The notes below the pieces were generated by a model. It saw only the letters and a list, made by a program, of their open reading frames with translations, was not told where the DNA came from and did not search any database. DNA of 22,232 bases from a virus, in IMG/VR virus record IMGVR_UViG_3300031951_001315, positions 1-22,232 of that record; one strand, 5' to 3'. The position numbers and the translations under genes were made by a program. Each line of letters starts with the position of its first letter. Position 1 is the stretch's first letter. Positions 4,240 through 20,843 of this stretch are shown here, one piece after another.

Positions 4240-4434
4240 AACGACTACAAGTTGTTGGCTGTAGTTGCCAAAGAGATCGAGAAGATGCGACAGGAGCAAA
4301 TTGCCTTTGTCGCTGCAAGTCGAGCCGATACCTTTGACGAATACAAAAAAGTCTGCGGAGTCATCCGGGGTCTGAACCTCGCAGAAAACATCATTAACGA
4401 CCTTGTGCAAAAAATGGAGAAGTCTGATGACTGA
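4237..4434 (+). CDS. Small helical protein of unknown function
   Basis: A 65-aa protein starting at TTG 4237. It is almost entirely helical by composition: KLLAVVAKEIEKMRQEQ, then DEYKKVCGVIRGLNLAENII, and a charged end. It begins just after the portal stop and overlaps the co-chaperonin start by 8 bases, so it is part of the same translationally coupled string. Small proteins with a YKKVCGVIRGLNLAENII-like segment are familiar to me at this place in aquatic phages, but without a function. No membrane segment or metal site is seen. A DNA- or portal-associated role would be guesswork. Confidence 0.75.
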   Translation: MNDYKLLAVVAKEIEKMRQEQIAFVAASRADTFDEYKKVCGVIRGLNLAENIINDLVQKMEKSDD

Positions 4435-4837
4435 GTTTGACGTAGCGGCAGTAGACCTGTCTGGAATCTTGAACACCACTGCGGAGCAAAAAGCCAAGCA
4501 GTTGCCTGACCCCAAGCGGTTTCATATGTTGTGTGTCGTTCCCGAAGCAATGGAGGAATACCACGACAGTGAAGTGGGGCTGATTAAAGATGCCAAGACA
4601 ATGCACTATGAGGAAGTACTCACTCCGGTTCTATTCGTTGTGAAGCTTGGCCCAGATTGCTACAAAGACGCTACCCGGTTCCCCAATGGACCGTCGTGCA
4701 AGGAAGGTGATTTTGTCATCGTCCGACCCAATACAGGCACCCGCCTGAAGATTCATGGCCGTGAATTCCGCATCATCAACGATGACTCGGTTGAAGCAGT
4801 TGTGGAAGACCCCCGTGGCATCACACGAGCATCATAA
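4427..4837 (+). CDS. GroES-like co-chaperonin
   Basis: Phage co-chaperonins (T4 gp31 is the model) replace host GroES on GroEL so that capsid proteins fold inside the cage. ATG 4427 was chosen because GGAG at 4416-4419 is well placed; the protein is 136 aa. Its C-terminal half reads like the GroES beta-barrel: HMLCVVPE (33-40) as first strand, a flexible segment at 45-62 containing VGLIK that resembles the hydrophobic tripeptide of the GroES mobile loop, then VLFVVKLGP (68-76), CKEGDFVIVRPNTGTRLKIH (91-110), and FRIINDDSVEAVVEDP matching the GroES ending of the type LIMSESDILAIVE. The first 30 residues are extra. It sits between portal and scaffold, fitting a role in head assembly. The family call rests on reading by eye. 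Confidence 0.75.
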   Translation: MTEFDVAAVDLSGILNTTAEQKAKQLPDPKRFHMLCVVPEAMEEYHDSEVGLIKDAKTMHYEEVLTPVLFVVKLGPDCYKDATRFPNGPSCKEGDFVIVRPNTGTRLKIHGREFRIINDDSVEAVVEDPRGITRAS

Positions 4838-7001: not shown

Positions 7002-7913
7002 ATGGCTATTTCACGCGCACAACTGCTGAAAGAGTTGCTCCCTGGTCTGAACGCTTTGTTCGGTATGGAGTATTCTCGTTACGGCGAAGAACACAAAGAG
7101 ATCTACGAAACTGAGACCTCTGAGCGTTCGTTTGAAGAAGAGACCAAACTGTCTGGATTCTCCGCCGCTCCGGTGAAGAACGAAGGCTCTGCAATTGCTT
7201 ATGACAACGCGCAGGAAGCTTGGTCAACCCGCTATACGCACGAAACCATCGCCTTGGGTTTCTCGATCACTGAAGAAGCGGTCGAAGATAACTTGTACGA
7301 CAGCTTGTCTGCTCGCTACACCAAGTCGCTGGCTCGCGCTATGGCTTACACCAAGCAAGTCAAGGCTGCTTCGGTCATTAACAACGGTTTCTCCAACACC
7401 TACGCAGGTGGTGATGGCGTTTCCCTGTTCAATGCCAGCCACCCCTTGATCTCCGGTGGTGTCAACAGCAACACTCCCTCCACTCAAGCTGATTTGAACG
7501 AGACTTCTTTGGAAGCCGCCGTTATTCAGATCGCCGCTTGGACGGACGAGCGTGGTTTGTTGATCGCAGCCAAGCCCAAGAAGATGGTTGTTCCCCCTGC
7601 CCTGATGTTCGTGGCCAAGCGTTTGCTGGACACCGAACTGCGGGTCTCTACTGCTGATAACGATATCAACGCTATCAAGCAGATGGGTGCAATCCCTGAA
7701 GGCTACTGTGTCAATCACTTCTTGACTGACACCAATGGCTGGTACTTGACCACTGACGTGCCTAACGGTATGAAGCACTTTGTCCGCACCCCCTTGCAGA
7801 ACAGCATGGACGGTGATTTCGACACTGGCAACGTCCGCTACAAGGCCCGTGAGCGTTACAGCTTCGGCTGGTCTGATCCCCTCGGTATGTGGGGTTCTTC
7901 AGGTTCAACCTGA
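7002..7913 (+). CDS. Major capsid protein (HK97-type fold, probable)
   Basis: This would build the icosahedral shell. It is 303 aa and starts at ATG after AAGGAG. It opens with a helix (RAQLLKELLPGLNALFGMEY), as coat proteins of this group do. A charged E-loop-like stretch follows (YETETSERSFEEETKLSGF), then a spine-helix region (EEAVEDNLYDSLSARYTKSL, RAMAYTKQVKAASVINNGF) and the P/A-domain segment with NASHPL, KKMVVPPALMFVAKRLL and NHFLTDTNGWYLTTD. The gene follows a scaffold and is followed by a terminator, as expected for a highly expressed gene. No delta-domain protease target is obvious at the N-terminus. It shows some resemblance to Mu gpT-like head subunits. Confidence 0.88.
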   Translation: MAISRAQLLKELLPGLNALFGMEYSRYGEEHKEIYETETSERSFEEETKLSGFSAAPVKNEGSAIAYDNAQEAWSTRYTHETIALGFSITEEAVEDNLYDSLSARYTKSLARAMAYTKQVKAASVINNGFSNTYAGGDGVSLFNASHPLISGGVNSNTPSTQADLNETSLEAAVIQIAAWTDERGLLIAAKPKKMVVPPALMFVAKRLLDTELRVSTADNDINAIKQMGAIPEGYCVNHFLTDTNGWYLTTDVPNGMKHFVRTPLQNSMDGDFDTGNVRYKARERYSFGWSDPLGMWGSSGST

Positions 7914-7949: not shown

Positions 7950-7977
7950 AGGGCTCCTTCGGGAGCCCTTTTTATTT
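7950..7977 (+). terminator. Rho-independent terminator after the capsid gene
   Basis: A perfect 7-bp stem, GGGCTCC at 7951-7957 with GGAGCCC at 7962-7968, is closed by a stable TTCG tetraloop and extended by an A-T pair. A T-rich run follows at 7969-7977. It lies 37 bases after the capsid stop, and is the strongest terminator-like hairpin in the window. Confidence 0.9.
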
Positions 7978-7978
7978 G

Positions 7979-8007
7979 TTGCGCCCCATAAAAAACCGTG
8001 ATATATT
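7979..8007 (+). promoter_or_regulatory. Predicted sigma70-type promoter with extended -10
   Basis: Directly after the terminator lies TATATT (8002-8007, five of six matches to TATAAT), preceded by TG at 7999-8000 to give an extended -10. A weak -35, TTGCGC at 7979-7984, is exactly 17 bases upstream. Transcription would start near 8014, giving a leader of about 83 bases before ATG 8097. A promoter here would restart transcription of the genes cut off by the terminator. This is a prediction by eye; the -35 is poor. Confidence 0.6.
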
Positions 8008-8016
8008 GGCTCCATT

Positions 8017-8089
8017 CCGGGGTTCCCGGTGTATCTGACAGTCCCGGCTGACGACATGCAGACAGATACGCCCCACTTGCATGTAAGGA
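8017..8089 (+). ncRNA. Structured 5' leader with predicted H-type pseudoknot next to the RBS
   Basis: Stem 1 is a 10-bp helix, 8028-8037 with 8063-8072, with one G-U wobble. Its loop contains ACATGCA (8054-8060), the exact complement of TGCATGT (8078-8084), giving a 7-bp second stem and an H-type pseudoknot. The Shine-Dalgarno AAGGA (8085-8089, counted from the A after the stem) follows at once. The loop also holds a 4-bp hairpin (8039-8042 with 8047-8050). A separate hairpin CCGGG/CCCGG (8017-8021 with 8025-8029) competes for the two outermost pairs of stem 1. The layout suggests translational control of the gene at 8097. The RNA family is not identified. Confidence 0.65.
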
Positions 8090-8096
8090 AACAATC

Positions 8097-8405
8097 ATGT
8101 CAAACACGACTTTTAGCGGCCCAGTTCGCTCGCAAAACGGCTTCCAGTCTATCACTGTAAACGGCACCACGGGCGCTGTAACTGTTGATGCAACCTTTGG
8201 CACTGCCACCTCGGTGGCCAGCGTTACGGTCTCTTCTTTTGTTGATCTGCCCGCCATTTTGACTGCCGCTTTGCCTACCGCAGCCGCTTCCAATGCTGGT
8301 CAAGTTCGCTTGATTAGCGACAACGGCGCAGGCAACAACGAGTACTGCCTTGTGATCTCTACTGGCTCTGCCTGGGTTACCGCTGTTGGCGCTGCTCTGA
8401 GTTAA
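8097..8405 (+). CDS. Small beta-rich virion protein, candidate decoration protein
   Basis: A 102-aa protein and the first gene of the transcript expected from the promoter at 7979-8007. It starts MSNTTFSGPVRSQNGFQSIT and is rich in Thr, Val, Ala and Ser, with alternating hydrophobic strands and no charged helix. The FSGPVRSQNGF opening is familiar from small proteins near capsid genes of uncultured phages. The dedicated terminator, promoter and leader imply an expression level set apart from the capsid gene. A head-decoration role is an inference from size, composition and position. Confidence 0.7.
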   Translation: MSNTTFSGPVRSQNGFQSITVNGTTGAVTVDATFGTATSVASVTVSSFVDLPAILTAALPTAAASNAGQVRLISDNGAGNNEYCLVISTGSAWVTAVGAALS

Positions 8406-8449: not shown

Positions 8450-8737
8450 ATGGGAATGCAGACTGATGTTAAATCAACGCGACTGACGGCAGACGGGCAA
8501 GCAGTTGCGTACCGCACTCGTGTAAAAACTGTCTACGGCCTTGCAGGGGCAAGCGCAGGGTCGGTCAAGTTCTACAACGGAACAGACAACACAGGCGACT
8601 TATTGCTTGATGTGGACACCCCCGCAGGCACAGCAAATACGTTTCTTCTACCAATCCCCGGTGAAGGCGTCTTGTTTACCGCAGGCGTTTACGTTGATGT
8701 GACCAACATCACGGGCGTGACAATTGTCTATGGCTAA
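8450..8737 (+). CDS. Small beta-rich protein, possible virion component
   Basis: A 95-aa protein. ATG 8450 was chosen over an in-frame TTG at 8444 because AAAGGAG at 8436-8442 is spaced 7 bases from it. It reads MGMQTDVKSTRLTADGQAV, then KTVYGLAGASAGSVKFYNG, LLLDVDTP, LLPIPGEGVLF and ends in ITGVTIVYG, all in short strands typical of a small beta-sandwich. Similar proteins are common in aquatic phage structural modules. It might be a decoration or head-fibre protein, but nothing proves this. The stop overlaps the next start. Confidence 0.65.
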   Translation: MGMQTDVKSTRLTADGQAVAYRTRVKTVYGLAGASAGSVKFYNGTDNTGDLLLDVDTPAGTANTFLLPIPGEGVLFTAGVYVDVTNITGVTIVYG

Positions 8738-9053
8738 GTCACCTGCATGGCAACGCAAGGAAGGCAAATCCGAGAAGGGCGGCTTGAACGCCAAGGGACG
8801 GGCTTCCTACAACGCAGCCAATCCGGGCAAGCCGGGGTTAAAAGCCCCGCAGCCCAAGGGCGGCAGCAGGCGCGACTCTTTCTGTGCAAGGATGACTGGG
8901 ATGAAGAAAAAACTCACATCCGAGAAGACAGCCAACGACCCAAACAGTCGGATTAACAAGAGCCTACGGGCTTGGAATTGCGCCGAGGGTGGGTATGTGA
9001 ACTCAGCAGATGGCATCGCCACCAAAGGCAAAACTAAGGGTAGGTTTGTCTGA
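8730..9053 (+). CDS. Small basic protein with C-terminal ADGIATKGKTKG tag
   Basis: A 107-aa, very basic protein starting at ATG 8730 inside the stop of the previous gene. The N-terminal half (SPAWQRKEGKSEKGGLNAKG, then RASYNAANPGKPGLKAP, GGSRRDSFCARMTGM, and INKSLRAWNC) resembles a conserved phage/bacterial domain of unknown function; DUF6321 is my tentative recollection, unverified. The end carries SADGIATKGKTKG (9003-9041) followed by RFV, a motif repeated in three later proteins. High Lys/Arg and Gly suggest nucleic acid or capsid-interior contact, but this is inference. Confidence 0.75.
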   Translation: MAKSPAWQRKEGKSEKGGLNAKGRASYNAANPGKPGLKAPQPKGGSRRDSFCARMTGMKKKLTSEKTANDPNSRINKSLRAWNCAEGGYVNSADGIATKGKTKGRFV

Positions 9054-9301
9054 TGGAGATGGCTGTTTGGAACGCTATTTTGACGGCCTTTCTGGGGCTA
9101 ATTGGTTGGAATCTGAAAGAGAAGTCCGATGAGATCAAACGCCTTCAGATTTTGATTAACAAGACCCGAGAAGAAATGCCCAAAGAGTACGTGACCAAGA
9201 TAGACTTGCACACAGATATCAATCGAATCATGGACAGGTTGGACAGGCTAGAAACCAAGATCGACATGTTCATGAAGGAGCAACGAAGTGCCCTCAGTTA
9301 G
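9053..9301 (+). CDS. Small membrane-anchored coiled-coil protein
   Basis: An 82-aa protein in a TGATG overlap with the previous stop. Residues 4-20 (AVWNAILTAFLGLIGWN) form one hydrophobic segment. The rest is a charged helix with a clear heptad pattern ending in INRIMDRLDRLETKIDMFMK. This N-terminal membrane helix plus coiled coil is seen in many small phage proteins, including some spanin- or holin-like ones, but also in virion proteins. Its place among head genes, away from a recognisable lysozyme, leaves the role open. Confidence 0.7.
   Translation: MEMAVWNAILTAFLGLIGWNLKEKSDEIKRLQILINKTREEMPKEYVTKIDLHTDINRIMDRLDRLETKIDMFMKEQRSALS
9275..9290 (+). promoter_or_regulatory. Ribosome binding site supporting a GTG start
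   Basis: AAGGAG at 9275-9280 lies 7 bases before GTG 9288, inside the coding region of the previous gene. It fixes GTG as the start of the next protein, whose second to sixth residues (PSVSK) match the usual start of that family. Confidence 0.75.
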
Positions 9302-9788
9302 CAAGAAACAACATAACTTCATGGCGGCGGTGGCCAACAATCCAGCGTTTGCCAAGAAGGTTGGGGTCCCTAAAAGCGTGGGGCAAGATTTTGCCGCTGC
9401 TGACAAAGGCAAGAAGTTTGGCGCGGGTACCCGTGCTGATTTGCAAGGTGTGAACAAGCCCAAAACCAATCAGGGCAAAACTGAACTTTTTAACAAAGGT
9501 GGCGAAATGAAAGAATCTAAAGCAATGGTCGGTAAAGAGATGGCCTTCATGAAAAAGAAGGGCGCTCCTGCTTCCATGATGAAACATGAGAAGGCCGAGA
9601 TGATGGGCATGAAAAAAGGTGGCATGAAGAAGATGGCCTCTGGTGGCATCGCCGCTTCAAAAATGGGTTCTGTTAGAACCGCCGCTCCCAGTGTGGACGG
9701 ACTTGCTGCCAAGGGTAAGACCAAAGGCACTCAAGTCAAAATGGCTGGCAGCAAACCTCTGGGTATGAAAAAGGGCGGCAAAGCCTAA
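9288..9788 (+). CDS. Basic Lys/Met/Gly-rich protein, DUF3008-like N-terminus, C-terminal tag
   Basis: A 166-aa protein starting at GTG and overlapping the previous gene by 14 bases. Its N-terminus, SKKQHNFMAAVANNPAFAKK then VGVPKSVGQDFAAADKGKKF, resembles the small DUF3008 family (recollection, not checked). The middle is low-complexity, rich in Lys, Met and Gly (MKKKGAPASMMK, MGMKKGGMKKMASGG). It then has VDGLAAKGKTKG (9693-9728), a variant of the tag shared by neighbouring genes, followed by another basic stretch ending MKKGGKA. Disordered and highly positive, it may bind DNA or the capsid interior. Function unknown. Confidence 0.75.
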   Translation: MPSVSKKQHNFMAAVANNPAFAKKVGVPKSVGQDFAAADKGKKFGAGTRADLQGVNKPKTNQGKTELFNKGGEMKESKAMVGKEMAFMKKKGAPASMMKHEKAEMMGMKKGGMKKMASGGIAASKMGSVRTAAPSVDGLAAKGKTKGTQVKMAGSKPLGMKKGGKA

Positions 9789-9800
9789 AAGGAGCCTGAC

Positions 9801-10469
9801 ATGGCACGAGGACGAGATTTAGCTGGGCTTGCAGCCCTCGCTGGGTTGGCCTACATGGCCAACAAAAAAGGCAAAGAAACCACCGGGGTTGACCCCGATG
9901 CGGCTATGGGCGCTGGCGCAGTTTCCCCCGAGGACGCCCGTGGCAACGCCGAGATGGCGCGTATGGCAGCTTTAGACAACCCTGACTTCGAGCCCGGTAT
10001 GTACACGAAGGAGCCCGGTGGGGATTCCGCGCCTGCACCCGCTCGTGCCGCTCCTACTCGTTCTGTTGCTGCGGCCCCTGCCCGCCCCAACATTGTGAGT
10101 CGGGAAGAAGGAATGAAGAACTACGTTCCTCGCCGCAAACCGCCTGCCAGTACAGTGTCCTCTTCAGAAGAAGGAATGAAGAACTACGTTCCTCGTCGTA
10201 CCCCGCAAGCCCAAGCTCCCGCCCGAGCCGCCGCTCGCCCTTCTGCCGCTGAACAAAAGTATTCTGCTGATCCGGATGCAACCATTGGTAAATTTGTTCC
10301 CGGCATAGGGTATGTAGATGTCAACGGGAATATCATGTCTCGCAATAGGCAGTACAAAAAAGGCGGCGCAGTCAAGACCAAAAAGATGGCCAGTGGTGGC
10401 ATGTCTTCGGCTTCTAAACGTGCTGACGGTATTGCCACTCGCGGCAAGACCAAGTACAAAATCTATTGA
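9801..10469 (+). CDS. Ala/Pro-rich low-complexity protein with internal repeat and C-terminal tag
   Basis: A 222-aa protein with GGAG 6 bases before ATG. It starts with a hydrophobic segment (LAGLAALAGLAYMA) and a basic patch that might touch the membrane. The central part is Pro/Ala-rich and disordered. Two near-identical blocks, EEGMKNYVPRR, occur 21 codons apart. A small ordered patch (IGKFVPGIGYVDVNGNIMSR) precedes a basic end with KKGGAVKTKKMASGG and RADGIATRGKTK (10419-10454). The tag is shared with three neighbours. No known family; a virion or DNA-associated linker protein is only a guess. Confidence 0.7.
   Translation: MARGRDLAGLAALAGLAYMANKKGKETTGVDPDAAMGAGAVSPEDARGNAEMARMAALDNPDFEPGMYTKEPGGDSAPAPARAAPTRSVAAAPARPNIVSREEGMKNYVPRRKPPASTVSSSEEGMKNYVPRRTPQAQAPARAAARPSAAEQKYSADPDATIGKFVPGIGYVDVNGNIMSRNRQYKKGGAVKTKKMASGGMSSASKRADGIATRGKTKYKIY
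10104..10195 (+). repeat. 29-bp direct repeat encoding EEGMKNYVPR
   Basis: An identical 29-base block occurs at 10104-10132 and 10167-10195, 63 bases apart and in the same reading frame. The bases after it differ only at synonymous third positions for the next Arg, so the peptide repeat is EEGMKNYVPRR. The perfect DNA identity suggests a recent duplication, or slippage-prone expansion, of a short linear motif. Confidence 0.9.
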
Positions 10470-10477
10470 GGTGAATC

Positions 10478-10882
10478 ATGGGGCGCTTTACAAGACATGG
10501 CATGGACAACCAACCGCTTGAGGGCGGTGGCGGGGGTGGGAGTGGTATTGCCAGCAAAATTGGAAATGCTATTGGTGCCGCTGGTGCTGCCGGGGTAGCA
10601 GCCACTCCTATTGGTGTTGCCTATAAGGCCAACGAGTTGGCAAAAGAACGTGAAGCCGCTGCTGGAAAGAAGCGGGAGGCTGCCGCTGAGATGAAGCGCG
10701 AAACCCGAGGGGTAGAGAAGTCTGGTACTGACAGAGCGCGGGAAGCCGCCAAAGTTATTTCAGACGATGAGAAGTACACCAAGGAAACCCCGGATCAAAA
10801 GTACGCCAAGGGTGGTACTGCTTCCTCTCGTGCTGATGGCTGTGCTCAGCGGGGTAAGACCCGTGGGACGATCATCAAATGA
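10478..10882 (+). CDS. Gly/Ala-rich helical protein with C-terminal tag
   Basis: A 134-aa protein with GAGGTGA before ATG. It opens with a poly-Gly linker (EGGGGGGSG) and then a Gly/Ala-rich hydrophobic stretch (IGNAIGAAGAAGVAATPIGVA) that could be a GxxxG-type membrane helix. A charged helix follows (ELAKEREAAAGKKREAAAEM). It ends with AKGGTASS and the tag RADGCAQRGKTRG (10829-10867), then TIIK. The stop overlaps the next start. A membrane-active, amphipathic virion protein is conceivable; no family is recognised. Confidence 0.7.
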   Translation: MGRFTRHGMDNQPLEGGGGGGSGIASKIGNAIGAAGAAGVAATPIGVAYKANELAKEREAAAGKKREAAAEMKRETRGVEKSGTDRAREAAKVISDDEKYTKETPDQKYAKGGTASSRADGCAQRGKTRGTIIK

Positions 10883-15705: not shown

Positions 15706-18213
15706 ATGGCACTCGTAGTAAAAGACAGAGTACAAGAAACCACCTCAACAACGGGGACGGGCACTGTTACGCTTGGTGGGGCTGTCCTTGGGTATCAGTC
15801 CTTTGCCACAGTTGGTAATGGCAATACCACGTACTACACCATCGTAGACCTGACCGCAGGGGACTGGGAAGTTGGTATTGGTACGTACACTGCTTCGGGT
15901 ACAACTCTGTCTCGTACAACCGTGTTGTCTTCCAGCAATGCAGGCTCGTTGGTTCCTTTCGCTGCGGGCACAAAGAATGTCTTTGTGACCTACCCGTCTT
16001 CGCGTTCGGTTTATCTGAGCGCGGCGGGGCTGGCTGTTGACGTTCTTGACATTGGCACACTGGGCACCAGCACGGCCAACATCACCACGGCAAATATTAC
16101 GTCCGGCACAGTATCAACAACACCAACCAACAACACAGACATTGTTAACAAGCAGTACGCCGACGCCATTGCGTCTGGCATCCACTTTCATGAAGCCGTA
16201 GCCTTAGCAACTACAACAACTCTACCAGCAAACACATACAACAACGGCACATCTGGGGTAGGAGCTACGCTTACAGGAAACGCTAACGGCGCTTTGTCTG
16301 TGGACTCAACACTTACTATTGCCGCAGAACGCATACTGGTAAAGAATGAAGCGGCTGGTGCAAATAACGGCGTGTATGTTGTTACTCAGGTAGGTTCTGC
16401 CGGAACGCCTTACATTCTGACTCGTGCTACAGACTTTGATTCTGTTGGTACCGGAGTTGACCAGATTGACGAGGGTGACTTTTTCTTGGTGACCAGCGGC
16501 GTTGCTAACCTTAATACTGCTTGGGTACAACAGACTGCACCTCCTATAACGATTGGCACAACAGCACTTGTTTTTCAGCAGTTCTCCGCACCAATCACTT
16601 ACACCGCAGGGACGGGGCTGTCTGAGTCTCCCACCTACACGTTCAACATCGCTAACACTGGGGTAAGCGCAACAACCTACGGCTCCGCAAGTTCTGTCCC
16701 AGTCGTGGCAGTCAACGCCCAAGGCCAGATTACTTCGGCTACCGACACAGCCATTGCCATTGCCGCAGGGGCGGTGTCTGGTCTTGCAGCTTCAGCTACC
16801 ACGGACACGACCAATGCAAACAACATCACCTCTGGTTCGTTGGGTACTTCAAGGCTCACGGGTTCTTACACGGGTATCACTGGGACGGGGGCATTGGCTG
16901 CGGGTTCGTTGGCTTCAGGCTTCACGGCAGTATCGGCTCCTCTGGGCGGCACTGGGCAAACCTCTTATGCCGTTGGCGACTTGATCTATGCAGACACAAC
17001 CACATCGCTGGCCAAACTTGCAGACGTAGCCGTAGGCAATGCACTGATCTCTGGGGGTGTAGGCGCGGCTCCAAGCTGGGGCAAGATTGGCATGGCAACG
17101 CATGTCAGCGGCACACTGCCAATCGCCAACGGCGGTACAAACTCTACGGCGACGGCGACAAACGGGGGTATTGGCTATGGTACGGGCACGGCCCATGCGT
17201 ACTCAGTGGCGGGCACTTCCGGGCAGGTCCTGCAAAGCAACGGGGCAGCGGCCCCCACTTGGCTTTCTCAATCCAGCATCGCTGCGGGTTCAGCAACCAA
17301 CGCTACTTTTGCATCATCGGCCACAAACGCCACTTTTGCGACTTCGGCTACCAATGCAACTTTTGCTTCTTCGGCCACCAACGCCAGCGCAGCTACCAAC
17401 GCAGGCTACGCCACAAATGCTGGTAGGGCGTACCCTAATCGGTCTGACGGTACGGGCATTAACTTTTATTGGTCTGGCCAAGGCGGGCAACCAACTTGGC
17501 TTTGGGGCGGCAATGATGGCGTTAATTTTTACGTTTACAACCCCAGCAACTTTGCTGTGTCCTCTGCTTCTAATGCAAGTTATGCCTCTTCGGCAGGTTC
17601 CGCTACCAACGCTACGTACTCGAATAACGCAAGTGCGAAGTGGACAAGTGCGGCAATTGCTGGGTCTCAATCTGGAAACACAAGTGCAGTTGAAGTCAGA
17701 AACAACGGCGGCACTGGTGATTCAAACCTTGCAAACATCACATTCCATTGCCAAGGGACTTATGGAACGTCACTCCACTTACGGCCAGACGGTTACTTCG
17801 GCGTTGGCGGATGGTCAGCAAGCTCATGGAGATGGTACACATATCTAGGCAATGGGGATATGACTGCGGCAGGAAACGTCACTGCATATTCTGACCCACG
17901 ATTAAAAACAGAAATTACCCCAATCCAGTCCGCTCTTTCCATTGTCCAGCAACTTAATGGTGTTAAATTTAAGTGGATTGAAAGCTCCATAATTGGGCAT
18001 CCGGGGGAGTACGACTACGGTGTGTTAGCAGATCAGGTACAGAAGGTGTTGCCTGAATTGGTCAGTGATTCGATGCACGAAGCCCCGGAAGGGGACAAAT
18101 ACAAAACAGTTGCATACGATAAATTTGCTCCAATTTTAATTGAGGCAGTCAAAGAGTTAACTGCCAAAGTAACAATGCTTGAAGAGAGCCTGAAAGCACT
18201 GGGAGCTAAATAA
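15706..18213 (+). CDS. Tail fibre/spike with C-terminal S74 intramolecular chaperone
   Basis: An 835-aa receptor-binding protein. The N-terminal ~130 residues (KDRVQETTSTTGTGTVTLGG onward) look like a virion-attachment domain. Residues about 160-300 contain a module common in aquatic phage fibres, with AERILVKNEAAGANNGVYVV and TRATDFDSV. A Gly/Thr/Ala-rich shaft follows, including three perfect 9-residue (S/G)SATNATFA-type units. The last ~109 residues match the peptidase S74 chaperone: YSDPRLKTEI (Ser729, with Arg and Lys in the conserved SDxRLK), NGVKFKW, YGVLADQVQKVLPELV and LIEAVKEL. This domain assists trimer folding and then cuts itself off, typically before that Ser. Fold type of the shaft is uncertain. 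Confidence 0.88.
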   Translation: MALVVKDRVQETTSTTGTGTVTLGGAVLGYQSFATVGNGNTTYYTIVDLTAGDWEVGIGTYTASGTTLSRTTVLSSSNAGSLVPFAAGTKNVFVTYPSSRSVYLSAAGLAVDVLDIGTLGTSTANITTANITSGTVSTTPTNNTDIVNKQYADAIASGIHFHEAVALATTTTLPANTYNNGTSGVGATLTGNANGALSVDSTLTIAAERILVKNEAAGANNGVYVVTQVGSAGTPYILTRATDFDSVGTGVDQIDEGDFFLVTSGVANLNTAWVQQTAPPITIGTTALVFQQFSAPITYTAGTGLSESPTYTFNIANTGVSATTYGSASSVPVVAVNAQGQITSATDTAIAIAAGAVSGLAASATTDTTNANNITSGSLGTSRLTGSYTGITGTGALAAGSLASGFTAVSAPLGGTGQTSYAVGDLIYADTTTSLAKLADVAVGNALISGGVGAAPSWGKIGMATHVSGTLPIANGGTNSTATATNGGIGYGTGTAHAYSVAGTSGQVLQSNGAAAPTWLSQSSIAAGSATNATFASSATNATFATSATNATFASSATNASAATNAGYATNAGRAYPNRSDGTGINFYWSGQGGQPTWLWGGNDGVNFYVYNPSNFAVSSASNASYASSAGSATNATYSNNASAKWTSAAIAGSQSGNTSAVEVRNNGGTGDSNLANITFHCQGTYGTSLHLRPDGYFGVGGWSASSWRWYTYLGNGDMTAAGNVTAYSDPRLKTEITPIQSALSIVQQLNGVKFKWIESSIIGHPGEYDYGVLADQVQKVLPELVSDSMHEAPEGDKYKTVAYDKFAPILIEAVKELTAKVTMLEESLKALGAK
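17287..17388 (+). repeat. 27-bp tandem repeat in fibre shaft
   Basis: Three in-frame 27-base units (17287-17313, 17314-17340, 17341-17367) encode GSATNATFA, SSATNATFA and TSATNATFA, followed by a partial fourth. Related SATNATFA blocks recur in the second fibre gene near 20290-20430. Confidence 0.85.
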
Positions 18214-19215: not shown

Positions 19216-19584
19216 ATGGCACATTTTGCACAACTTAATGAACAAGGCATAGTCACACAAGTTATTGTTGTGGCTAATGATGAATTGTTGGTGGATGGCG
19301 TAGAGGACGAAGCAAAGGGGGTTGCTTTTTGTCAGTCTTTGTTTGGCGGCGACTGGAAACAAACAAGCTACAGTGGAAGTATTCGGAAAAATTACGCTGG
19401 TCTTGGGTATACCTACGACGCTAAGCGTGATGCGTTTATTCCCCCTCAACCGTATCCAAGCTGGGTGTTGGTAGAAGAAACTTGTAATTGGATTGCGCCT
19501 GTTTCTTATCCTACTAACGGTGGGATATATCAATGGGATGAAACAACGGCAGCTTGGGTTGAATTTATAAAGGAAAACCAATGA
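19216..19584 (+). CDS. Small fibre-associated protein
   Basis: A 122-aa protein starting five bases after the adhesin stop. It reads MAHFAQLNEQGIVTQVIVVA, IRKNYAGLGYTYDAKRDAFI, PPQPYPSWVLVEETCNWIAP, ending with WDETTAAWVEFIKENQ. The segments RKNYAGIGYTYD and IPPxPYPSWVL are familiar from T4-like cyanophages and other aquatic phages, where the protein lies next to tail-fibre genes. It may assist fibre assembly or be a minor tail component. The stop overlaps the start of the next fibre gene, supporting a shared task. Confidence 0.75.
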   Translation: MAHFAQLNEQGIVTQVIVVANDELLVDGVEDEAKGVAFCQSLFGGDWKQTSYSGSIRKNYAGLGYTYDAKRDAFIPPQPYPSWVLVEETCNWIAPVSYPTNGGIYQWDETTAAWVEFIKENQ

Positions 19585-20843
19585 GCACATATTCCTCAAA
19601 TCTTCGGATTGAACTGCCGACTAGCGGCACCCAGGCGGGTGTTTGGGGAGACACGACCAACAACAATTTGGCGTATATCCTAGATACCGCTGTCAGTGGG
19701 TATCAGACGGTCAGCGTGACTTCTGCCAGCCAAGCCCTGACATACACAAACGGCCCAACGTCCACAGCAGCAAGCAACCAAGCTGTGTATGCCATGTTGC
19801 GGTTCACCACCACGACTGGTGCTGCCTTCGCTGTCTATGCACCCCCTGCCTCCAAAGCGTACATCGTTTGGAACAACAGTGGTTATTCAATGACCATCTA
19901 CAACTCGTCTGTGATTGGCAACACCACAGCAGCGGGAACAGGGGTCACGGTCACCGACGGCTCCAAAGTCATGGTCTGGTCTGATGCGACCAACTTCTAT
20001 GAACTGCAAGCCGCAAACCTGACTGGTACTTTGGCGGTTGTCAATGGTGGTACAGGCGCAACCACTGCGGCAGGAGCAAGAACAAATTTAGGTTTGGTCA
20101 TTGGTACAAACGTACCTTCTCCTACTGGAACCGGGGCGTCAGGTACTTGGGGTATTAACGTCTCAGGCAGCGCAGCCAGCGCCACAAATGCAACTCTGGC
20201 TACTACCGCCACTTTGGCCACTTTAGCTACTACTGCCACTTTGGCCACTACAGCTACGCTGGCTACGCTTGCAACACTAGCGTCTTCCGCAACAAATGCA
20301 ACTTTTGCCACCTCCGCAGGGTCTGCCACCAATGCCGGGGCTGCTACTAACGCGGGGTTTGCGACCAGTGCGGGGTCCGCCACCAATGCAACTTTTGCCA
20401 CTTCCGCAGGGTCTGCCACCAACGCAGGGTTTGCCACTAACTCAACAACCGCTGCCAATGGTGGGGTAACTTCAGTTAATGGTTTGACTGGCGCTGTTAG
20501 TATGACGGGCTATGGTGATATTGGCTCATATGTAATTGCTGGATCAACCGATTTTAATACGGTGTCTACCACCTATAGCGCCGGTACGACGGTTGCTGGA
20601 AGCACTCTAACCAGATCATCTGGTAACCAAGGTGGTGGTTCTGGGTCTGGTGCAAATAACGTAGCGTTAAATATGTGGTTTGGCGGTGGCTTTAACGGGT
20701 ATGGAAACGGGACTACGATGGCAAGTAGTTTTGCTGATACAAATCTAGGACTAAGTGGGACTTGGCGATTAATGACTTTTGCGTATTACAGCGCTGGCTA
20801 CGGTCAGTATTATCCAGTTGGACTTTTTGTAAGGATTGCATGA
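19581..20843 (+). CDS. Second tail fibre protein
   Basis: A 420-aa protein in an ATGA overlap. Residues 1-145 form an N-terminal domain (YSSNLRIELPTSGTQAGVWG, NNNLAYILDTAVSGYQTVSV, KAYIVWNNSGYSMTIYNSS) that I recognise as a virion-attachment module. It is followed by a linker with LAVVNGGTGATTAAGARTNL, typical of fibre shafts. Residues ~195-295 are low-complexity Ala/Thr/Leu and SATNATFA repeats. A Gly-rich tip ends with SGTWRLMTFAYY and VGLFVRIA, a common receptor-binding ending. No S74 domain is present, unlike the first fibre. Confidence 0.82.
   Translation: MSTYSSNLRIELPTSGTQAGVWGDTTNNNLAYILDTAVSGYQTVSVTSASQALTYTNGPTSTAASNQAVYAMLRFTTTTGAAFAVYAPPASKAYIVWNNSGYSMTIYNSSVIGNTTAAGTGVTVTDGSKVMVWSDATNFYELQAANLTGTLAVVNGGTGATTAAGARTNLGLVIGTNVPSPTGTGASGTWGINVSGSAASATNATLATTATLATLATTATLATTATLATLATLASSATNATFATSAGSATNAGAATNAGFATSAGSATNATFATSAGSATNAGFATNSTTAANGGVTSVNGLTGAVSMTGYGDIGSYVIAGSTDFNTVSTTYSAGTTVAGSTLTRSSGNQGGGSGSGANNVALNMWFGGGFNGYGNGTTMASSFADTNLGLSGTWRLMTFAYYSAGYGQYYPVGLFVRIA
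20295..20422 (+). repeat. 90-bp spaced repeat in second fibre
   Basis: A 38-base block at 20295-20332 recurs at 20385-20422 with one mismatch (20312 C, 20402 T), exactly 90 bases or 30 codons apart. It encodes NATFATSAGSATN. Between and around lie further diverged copies. Its SATNATFA core matches the shaft of the first fibre, so it could support recombination between the two genes. Confidence 0.85.

Follow-up and report, generated by a model that had tools for sequence, protein, structure and literature searches.

Between the gene for a Mu gpT-like major capsid protein and a 102-codon gene beginning MSNTTFSGPVRSQNGF, the stretch of viral DNA analysed here (22,232 nucleotides, hereafter the window) carries a leader, 8017-8096, whose segments are complementary to one another up to the edge of a ribosome site. 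What is this leader, and what does it do for the gene that follows? We consider it quite likely that it is a structured, cis-acting RNA serving as the translational operator of a cement-protein gene, and it probably sets the timing or the amount of the cement protein made.

The capsid protein of the window shares 72% identity with its homologue in phage MinM2, which is annotated as 'Bacteriophage Mu, GpT'. The gap that follows its gene is not the only sizeable one, as a preliminary description of this DNA had held; about 150 nucleotides also separate the terminase and portal genes, between 1575 and 1726. A GroES-like ORF (4403-4837) lies between the portal and scaffold genes, and the same position is kept in Pelagibacter, Roseobacter and Alcaligenes phages. 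Farther downstream, four small ORFs (8724-9053, 9288-9788, 9801-10469 and 10478-10882) end in a motif close to ADGxAxxGKTKG, suggesting a common C-terminal tag of unrelated minor virion proteins, and two putative tail-fibre ORFs (15706-18213 and 19581-20843) have long SATNATFATSATNA repeats in common.

Since a terminator-like hairpin and a -10-like element both lie between the capsid gene and the leader (Table 1), the mRNA would start near 8017. The transcription start is predicted from the -10-like element at about 8014-8016, and the mRNA of the cement gene probably begins 1-2 bases 5′ of 8017. Similar terminator-like hairpins were found in many related loci, and several class I relatives carry the same -10-like element 9 nt upstream of the PK1 5′ strand. 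This regular spacing is suggestive, and it is the only hint of a promoter: a consensus promoter scan of the window did not list TG-A-TATATT, and a promoter signal by counts was rejected, with -10-like sites near the 5′ strand in 39 of 55 cases compared with 36 expected from shuffles.

Direct reading confirmed the coordinates of stem P1, as well as the complementarity of ACATGCA to TGCATGT at 8078-8084, adjoining AAGGA. However, the plain two-stem H-type pseudoknot that these two elements had been taken for is actually a fold with two pseudoknots, together with P2 and P3; the P2 hairpin, PK1 and P3 had been missed, two of the five helices having been seen. In the proposed fold, P1 would enclose a single A and the 3-bp P2, the loop of which would form PK1 by pairing with the start of the leader. 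In the window, the linker would then kiss the 6-nt loop of P3, the 3′ side of which begins the Shine-Dalgarno sequence.

Table 1. Features of the leader and of its surroundings, in positions of the window.
Feature	Position	Strand	Remarks
Mu gpT-like major capsid protein gene	7002-7913	+	Directly upstream of leader; PHROGs major head protein
Intrinsic terminator-like hairpin	7950-7969	+	Followed by TTTTTATTT; predicted to end the capsid-gene transcript
Promoter-like extended -10, TG-A-TATATT	7999-8007	+	Direct reading
PK1 5′ strand, CCGGG	8017-8021	+	Partner is P2 loop, 8043-8047
P1 5′ strand, GGTGTATCTG	8028-8037	+	10/10 pairs with double changes
J1/2, single adenosine	8038	+	Nearly invariant; 21/22 protein-selected rows
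P2 5′ strand, CAG	8039-8041	+	Alignment covariation
P2 loop, 6 nt, TCCCGG	8042-8047	+	CCCGG is the PK1 3′ strand
P2 3′ strand, CTG	8048-8050	+	Alignment covariation
J2/1 5′ part, ACG	8051-8053	+	A and C invariant, 22/22 protein-selected rows
PK2 linker, ACATGC(A)	8054-8060	+	6/6 pairs with double changes
GA preceding P1′	8061-8062	+	Invariant in 22/22 protein-selected rows
P1 3′ strand (P1′), CAGATACGCC	8063-8072	+	Pairs with 8028-8037; 10 bp including one U-G
P3 5′ strand, CTT	8076-8078	+	Partner AAG, 8085-8087
P3 loop, 6 nt, GCATGT	8079-8084	+	PK2 3′ strand
Shine-Dalgarno, AAGGA	8085-8089	+	First three bases form the P3 3′ strand
Putative capsid cement/decoration protein gene, FSGP N-terminus	8097-8405	+	N-terminus common with DSL-LC04 'cement protein'

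The core order P1, one A, P2, AC, linker, GA, P1′ was recovered with one parser in diverse leaders, in which P2 usually has 3 bp and a 6-nt loop. The A and C of J2/1 were invariant also in the 58 representatives of alignment A5, the C not having been imposed by the parser, and A8051, C8052, G8061 and A8062 showed no variation among the 22 protein-selected rows of class I.

On the 3′ side, the Shine-Dalgarno of the window starts 12 nt 3′ of P1′ (bases 8085-8096 read AAGGAAACAATC) and lies, in the window's class, only partly within P3. P3 recurs in relatives as CUC/GAG, CUU/AAG, GUG/CAC and CCU/AGG, with double changes in all three pairs. Its own stability was estimated at about +2 to -0.6 kcal/mol, compared with about -7.9 kcal/mol for PK2. 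Such a hairpin is not stable enough to form by itself, and masking of the Shine-Dalgarno would therefore hinge on the complete tertiary fold. P3 is absent from pelagiphage-type leaders that target the Shine-Dalgarno and is thus not a family-wide element. The short linker seen in the preliminary description as a difficulty for a 10-bp stem proved to be no obstacle, the spacing from P1′ to P3 being variable among relatives (L052, L057, L041). A leader peptide was also considered and rejected: the ATG inside the leader at 8056 lacks a ribosome site and is not kept in relatives, L004 for example having ATA there.

Calculated without pseudoknots, the minimum free energy of the leader is ordinary relative to shuffles (z = +0.38). 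Energy by itself would thus miss the leader, and the case is therefore built on comparison with relatives. In a MAFFT alignment of 75 representative leaders (A1), 25 of the 27 base pairs in the five helices displayed double-sided changes. Paired cells made up 93.3% of this alignment, compared with 83.0% after shuffling, none of 500 shuffles reaching the observed value, and pairing fell to 27-43% when the partners were shifted by 1-3 columns. Across 58 diverse core leaders from many lineages, P1 cells were paired in 97% of cases, with a covariation score of 0.93 versus 0.23, and the nine core pairs held in 96% of cells. These covariation tests were made without a formal phylogeny model, the safeguard being the number of unrelated pair types, with more than 20 distinct types for PK2 and more than 10 for PK1.

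An alignment-free swap test on 84 protein-selected leaders, comparing the pairing of the linker with its own downstream region and with swapped regions, gave a mean of 5.55 versus 3.87 bp for PK2 (z 16.5), with at least 5 bp in 72 of the 84 representatives. For PK1 the means were 5.01 versus 3.53 bp (z 13.1), while two control pairings were null. Both stems reported earlier, for which compensatory changes had been proposed as the test, hence recur in relatives with such changes rather than losing their complementarity. The hairpin at 8017-8029 (CCGGGgttCCCGG), described as a competitor for the outer pairs of P1, is present in the window. It is not conserved as a competitor, however, because in 32 of 64 representatives no local pairing of at least 3 bp is open to the 5′ strand, whereas PK1 pairing of that strand with the P2 loop reaches at least 5 bp in 64 of 84. 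Finally, at internal positions of P1 we counted 26 isolated G-U pairs versus 7 A-C mismatches, pointing to a leader that acts as sense RNA; these counts were redone on internal positions, as the scoring of the first parse had biased them. On this comparative basis, the complementarities of the leader are under strong selection.

Relatives of the locus were collected from IMG/VR in two ways. Scanning with the downstream protein as the sole criterion returned at least 80 loci, whose leaders preserve the architecture although their bases differ widely, and an independent scan by RNA pattern returned at least 120 matches. The leader set was enlarged by three further protein scans. For the link to the gene, the pattern-found loci and four from genomes gave 120 occurrences with readable downstream sequence, and among the matches listed all 120 RNAs precede a gene whose product starts M-x-x-T-T-F-S-G-P. 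The compact pseudoknotted leader first described, placed before a capsid-module gene and against its ribosome site, is thus supported by relatives, and it is abundant, being kept in hundreds of aquatic phage sequences.

Searches of isolate phages with the leader DNA or the window cement protein gave no match. Through the capsid protein, by contrast, we found the gene order of the window in the cultured Pelagibacter phages HTVC023P and HTVC027P, in the Roseobacter phages CRP-901 and CRP-902, and in DSL-LC04, a lake phage in which the FSGP gene carries the annotation 'cement protein'. Variants of the leader RNA are present in HTVC023P, HTVC027P, CRP-902 and DSL-LC04. A CM built on class I also picked up class III leaders and that of HTVC023P, with no other match across 0.7 Mb. 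In bacterial genomes there were four matches, all on metagenome-assembled contigs and all preceding FSGP genes; therefore no host gene was seen to use the leader.

Some loci depart from this arrangement. FSGP genes without the leader RNA occur in L230, L067 and L080, the one in L230 apparently being a second FSGP copy at a later position in the operon and having just an ordinary terminator-like hairpin upstream. In Synechococcus phage MinM2 (L206, 1528-1631; also L216, Pag-Yong1), the post-capsid gene begins MSTTLFPAPVKVG. A hairpin loop in the leader of this gene contains CCGTCTCC, which is the complement of GGAGACGG across the Shine-Dalgarno. The MinM2-type leader is apparently a different pseudoknot solution for the same masking.

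The product of the window gene is a putative capsid cement protein, judged by its position and its N-terminus. Behind this one constant N-terminus, at least 18 unrelated C-terminal clusters were found, one of them with likeness to laminin-G/lectin domains slightly under the Pfam cutoff. A model of the L299 product, encoded behind a class I leader, shows a beta-sandwich behind an FSGP arm that is disordered (pLDDT 81), and its fold matches include cement proteins (KHP30, Z 12.8; Pam1, 11.9; KHP40, 11.8; GP4, 10.3). Prediction was poor for the protein of the window itself (pLDDT 60).

The leaders differ in where PK2 lands. In the 84 representatives, the target lies just upstream of the Shine-Dalgarno in 39, on the Shine-Dalgarno in 20 and on the AUG in 24. 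Pairing on the Shine-Dalgarno is mostly that of CCUAG with CUAGG-AG, in leaders of the pelagiphage type. In leaders that target the AUG, the linker base opposite codon 2 was complementary in all 35 cases, being G for GCN codons and C for GGN codons, and five loci (L336, L346, L433, L437 and L439) combine the P2 and PK1 of class I with an AUG-pairing linker. The sole feature common to all classes is pairing of the linker with the translation initiation region, and this is our main reason for reading the leader as an operator that acts on translation and is repressive when folded.

Searched against Rfam 15, the window leader had no match at the gathering threshold or at E<=10; the earlier description had not matched it to any named RNA family either. 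Kinship with Polynucleobacter-1 (RF01718), which had been named there for comparison and is listed for Burkholderiales of fresh water and estuaries (PMC2864571), was not borne out by this search. The nearest named family is Mu-gpT-DE (RF03012, Rfam type 'Gene; sRNA'), which matches the minimal relatives and not the window. These relatives belong to the minimal start-codon class, with 71.7 bits for L012 and 72.3 bits for Roseobacter phage CRP-902 against a gathering cutoff of 49, and further members match more weakly. In a covariation study from 2020, both database alignments of Mu-gpT-DE were reported to be without covarying pairs (PMC7657543).

Mu-gpT-DE shares with the window the succession of P1, P2, a single-stranded 3′ joining region and P1′, GAC at both junctions, and the common core P1, one A, P2, AC-linker-GA, P1′. 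Both lie 3′ of a Mu gpT-like capsid gene and 5′ of an FSGP gene. The RF03012 alignment, however, ends on the AUG and has a 4-bp P1 with the 3′ strand CAGG holding the Shine-Dalgarno, whereas the Shine-Dalgarno of the window lies outside P1. It lacks the 5′ strand, PK1 and any annotated pseudoknot, the Rfam structure consisting of P1 and P2 only, while the window has a 10-bp P1, PK1, P3 and a Shine-Dalgarno hairpin as target. With filters on, model R2, built without class II, had no match in class II loci; with filters off, weak matches at the correct site appeared only in L331 (E 0.012), L376, L056 and L427. Common ancestry of the window class and Mu-gpT-DE, which share grammar, place and gene and are connected by intermediate forms, is thus likely rather than proven, and we therefore do not file the window under RF03012.

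If the leader is an operator, its folded state would be OFF or throttled and its unfolded state ON, the ribosome site being occluded only with the whole tertiary fold in place. Such occlusion would lower translation, and the invariant unpaired bases may form a recognition core. The effector would most likely be a virion protein, either the cement arm or the major capsid protein, to which we give somewhat less than an even chance; negative feedback by it would match cement to capsid supply. The alternatives are a metabolite or no effector at all. A literature search found no experiment on the leader RNA.

A leader acting without any effector, as a 5′ cap against decay or as a constant brake whose translation rate fixes the cement-to-capsid stoichiometry, is possible but doubtful. 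In its favour, the PK1 strand is placed at the 5′ end predicted for the transcript, structural proteins have to be made in set proportions, and no observation requires an effector. A ribosome site alone could set such a rate, however, and the two pseudoknots, the invariant junction and the retargeting of the linker, all kept over divergence, suggest that the core is recognised.

Recognition by a small molecule, with the junction A; AC; GA as a metabolite pocket that signals the host state and closes the cement gene when binding stabilises the fold, appears unlikely. No Rfam riboswitch matches the leader, a capsid cement gene would be an odd metabolite target, and the 120 of 120 RNAs among the matches listed precede one structural gene type and no metabolic gene. 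This is so even though an invariant unpaired junction amid variable helices, with a pseudoknot at the ribosome site, is the layout of a small translational riboswitch, and glutamine riboswitches have been reported in phages of streamlined marine bacteria (PMC9004378).

We regard the opposite polarity as distinctly improbable, namely that PK2 draws the anti-Shine-Dalgarno strand from a local hairpin and the pseudoknot thereby activates translation. The 7-bp PK2 (8054-8060/8078-8084) and a 4-bp hairpin (8076-8079/8084-8087) are indeed mutually exclusive and both covary, and the partial inclusion of the Shine-Dalgarno in P3 would also fit an active folded state. Yet the local hairpin, at about +1.5 kcal/mol in the window, is unable to hold the Shine-Dalgarno alone, and PK2 directly covers the Shine-Dalgarno or the AUG in other classes. 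That the element works at the level of DNA, as a protein-binding operator or as a recombination site swapping C-terminal domains with RNA folding incidental, is scarcely credible, because a DNA site would conserve sequence and not complementarity: that so many unrelated C-terminal clusters share one leader and N-terminus does show module exchange, and ACATGC/GCATGT is an inverted repeat, but the arms shift to many unrelated sequences yet stay complementary, G-U is favoured over A-C, and nested and crossing pairings terminate on the Shine-Dalgarno or the AUG.

Returning to the translational operator, we tentatively propose a broader role for it. Tailed DNA phages may sense free capsid parts by a widespread RNA operator, in which the invariant junction would be bound either by cement protein not yet assembled, by way of its conserved M-x-x-T-T-F-S-G-P arm, or by the major capsid protein, and the initiation region of the cement gene would thereby be locked. 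Evolution would have kept the core and retargeted the linker to a Shine-Dalgarno hairpin, the Shine-Dalgarno or the start codon, with the Mu-gpT-DE 'sRNA' as the minimal form. An operator core would thus be kept while its contact moves from the Shine-Dalgarno to the start codon, and a cis role is suggested for Mu-gpT-DE, an orphan family typed as sRNA in Rfam. As the leader is present in cultured Pelagibacter and Roseobacter phages, it is directly testable.

In RNA phages, folded leaders that control the translation of capsid parts are a familiar device, while in tailed DNA phages such control is, to our knowledge, not standard. Translational riboswitches of the SAM-II and preQ1 type likewise have a pseudoknot touching the Shine-Dalgarno and invariant junction bases. 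Their helices and the order of these differ from those of the window leader, which has no Rfam sequence match to them and precedes a single family of structural genes rather than metabolic genes. The T4/RB69 gene 32 operator is similar in being a pseudoknot at the 5′ end of a phage mRNA, just before the ribosome site for a protein made in bulk (PMC535899). It consists of a pseudoknot of ~28 nt followed by unstructured UUAAA repeats, with cooperative spreading of the protein, whereas the window leader has no UUAAA repeats in 8085-8096 and its fold would itself pair with the initiation region.
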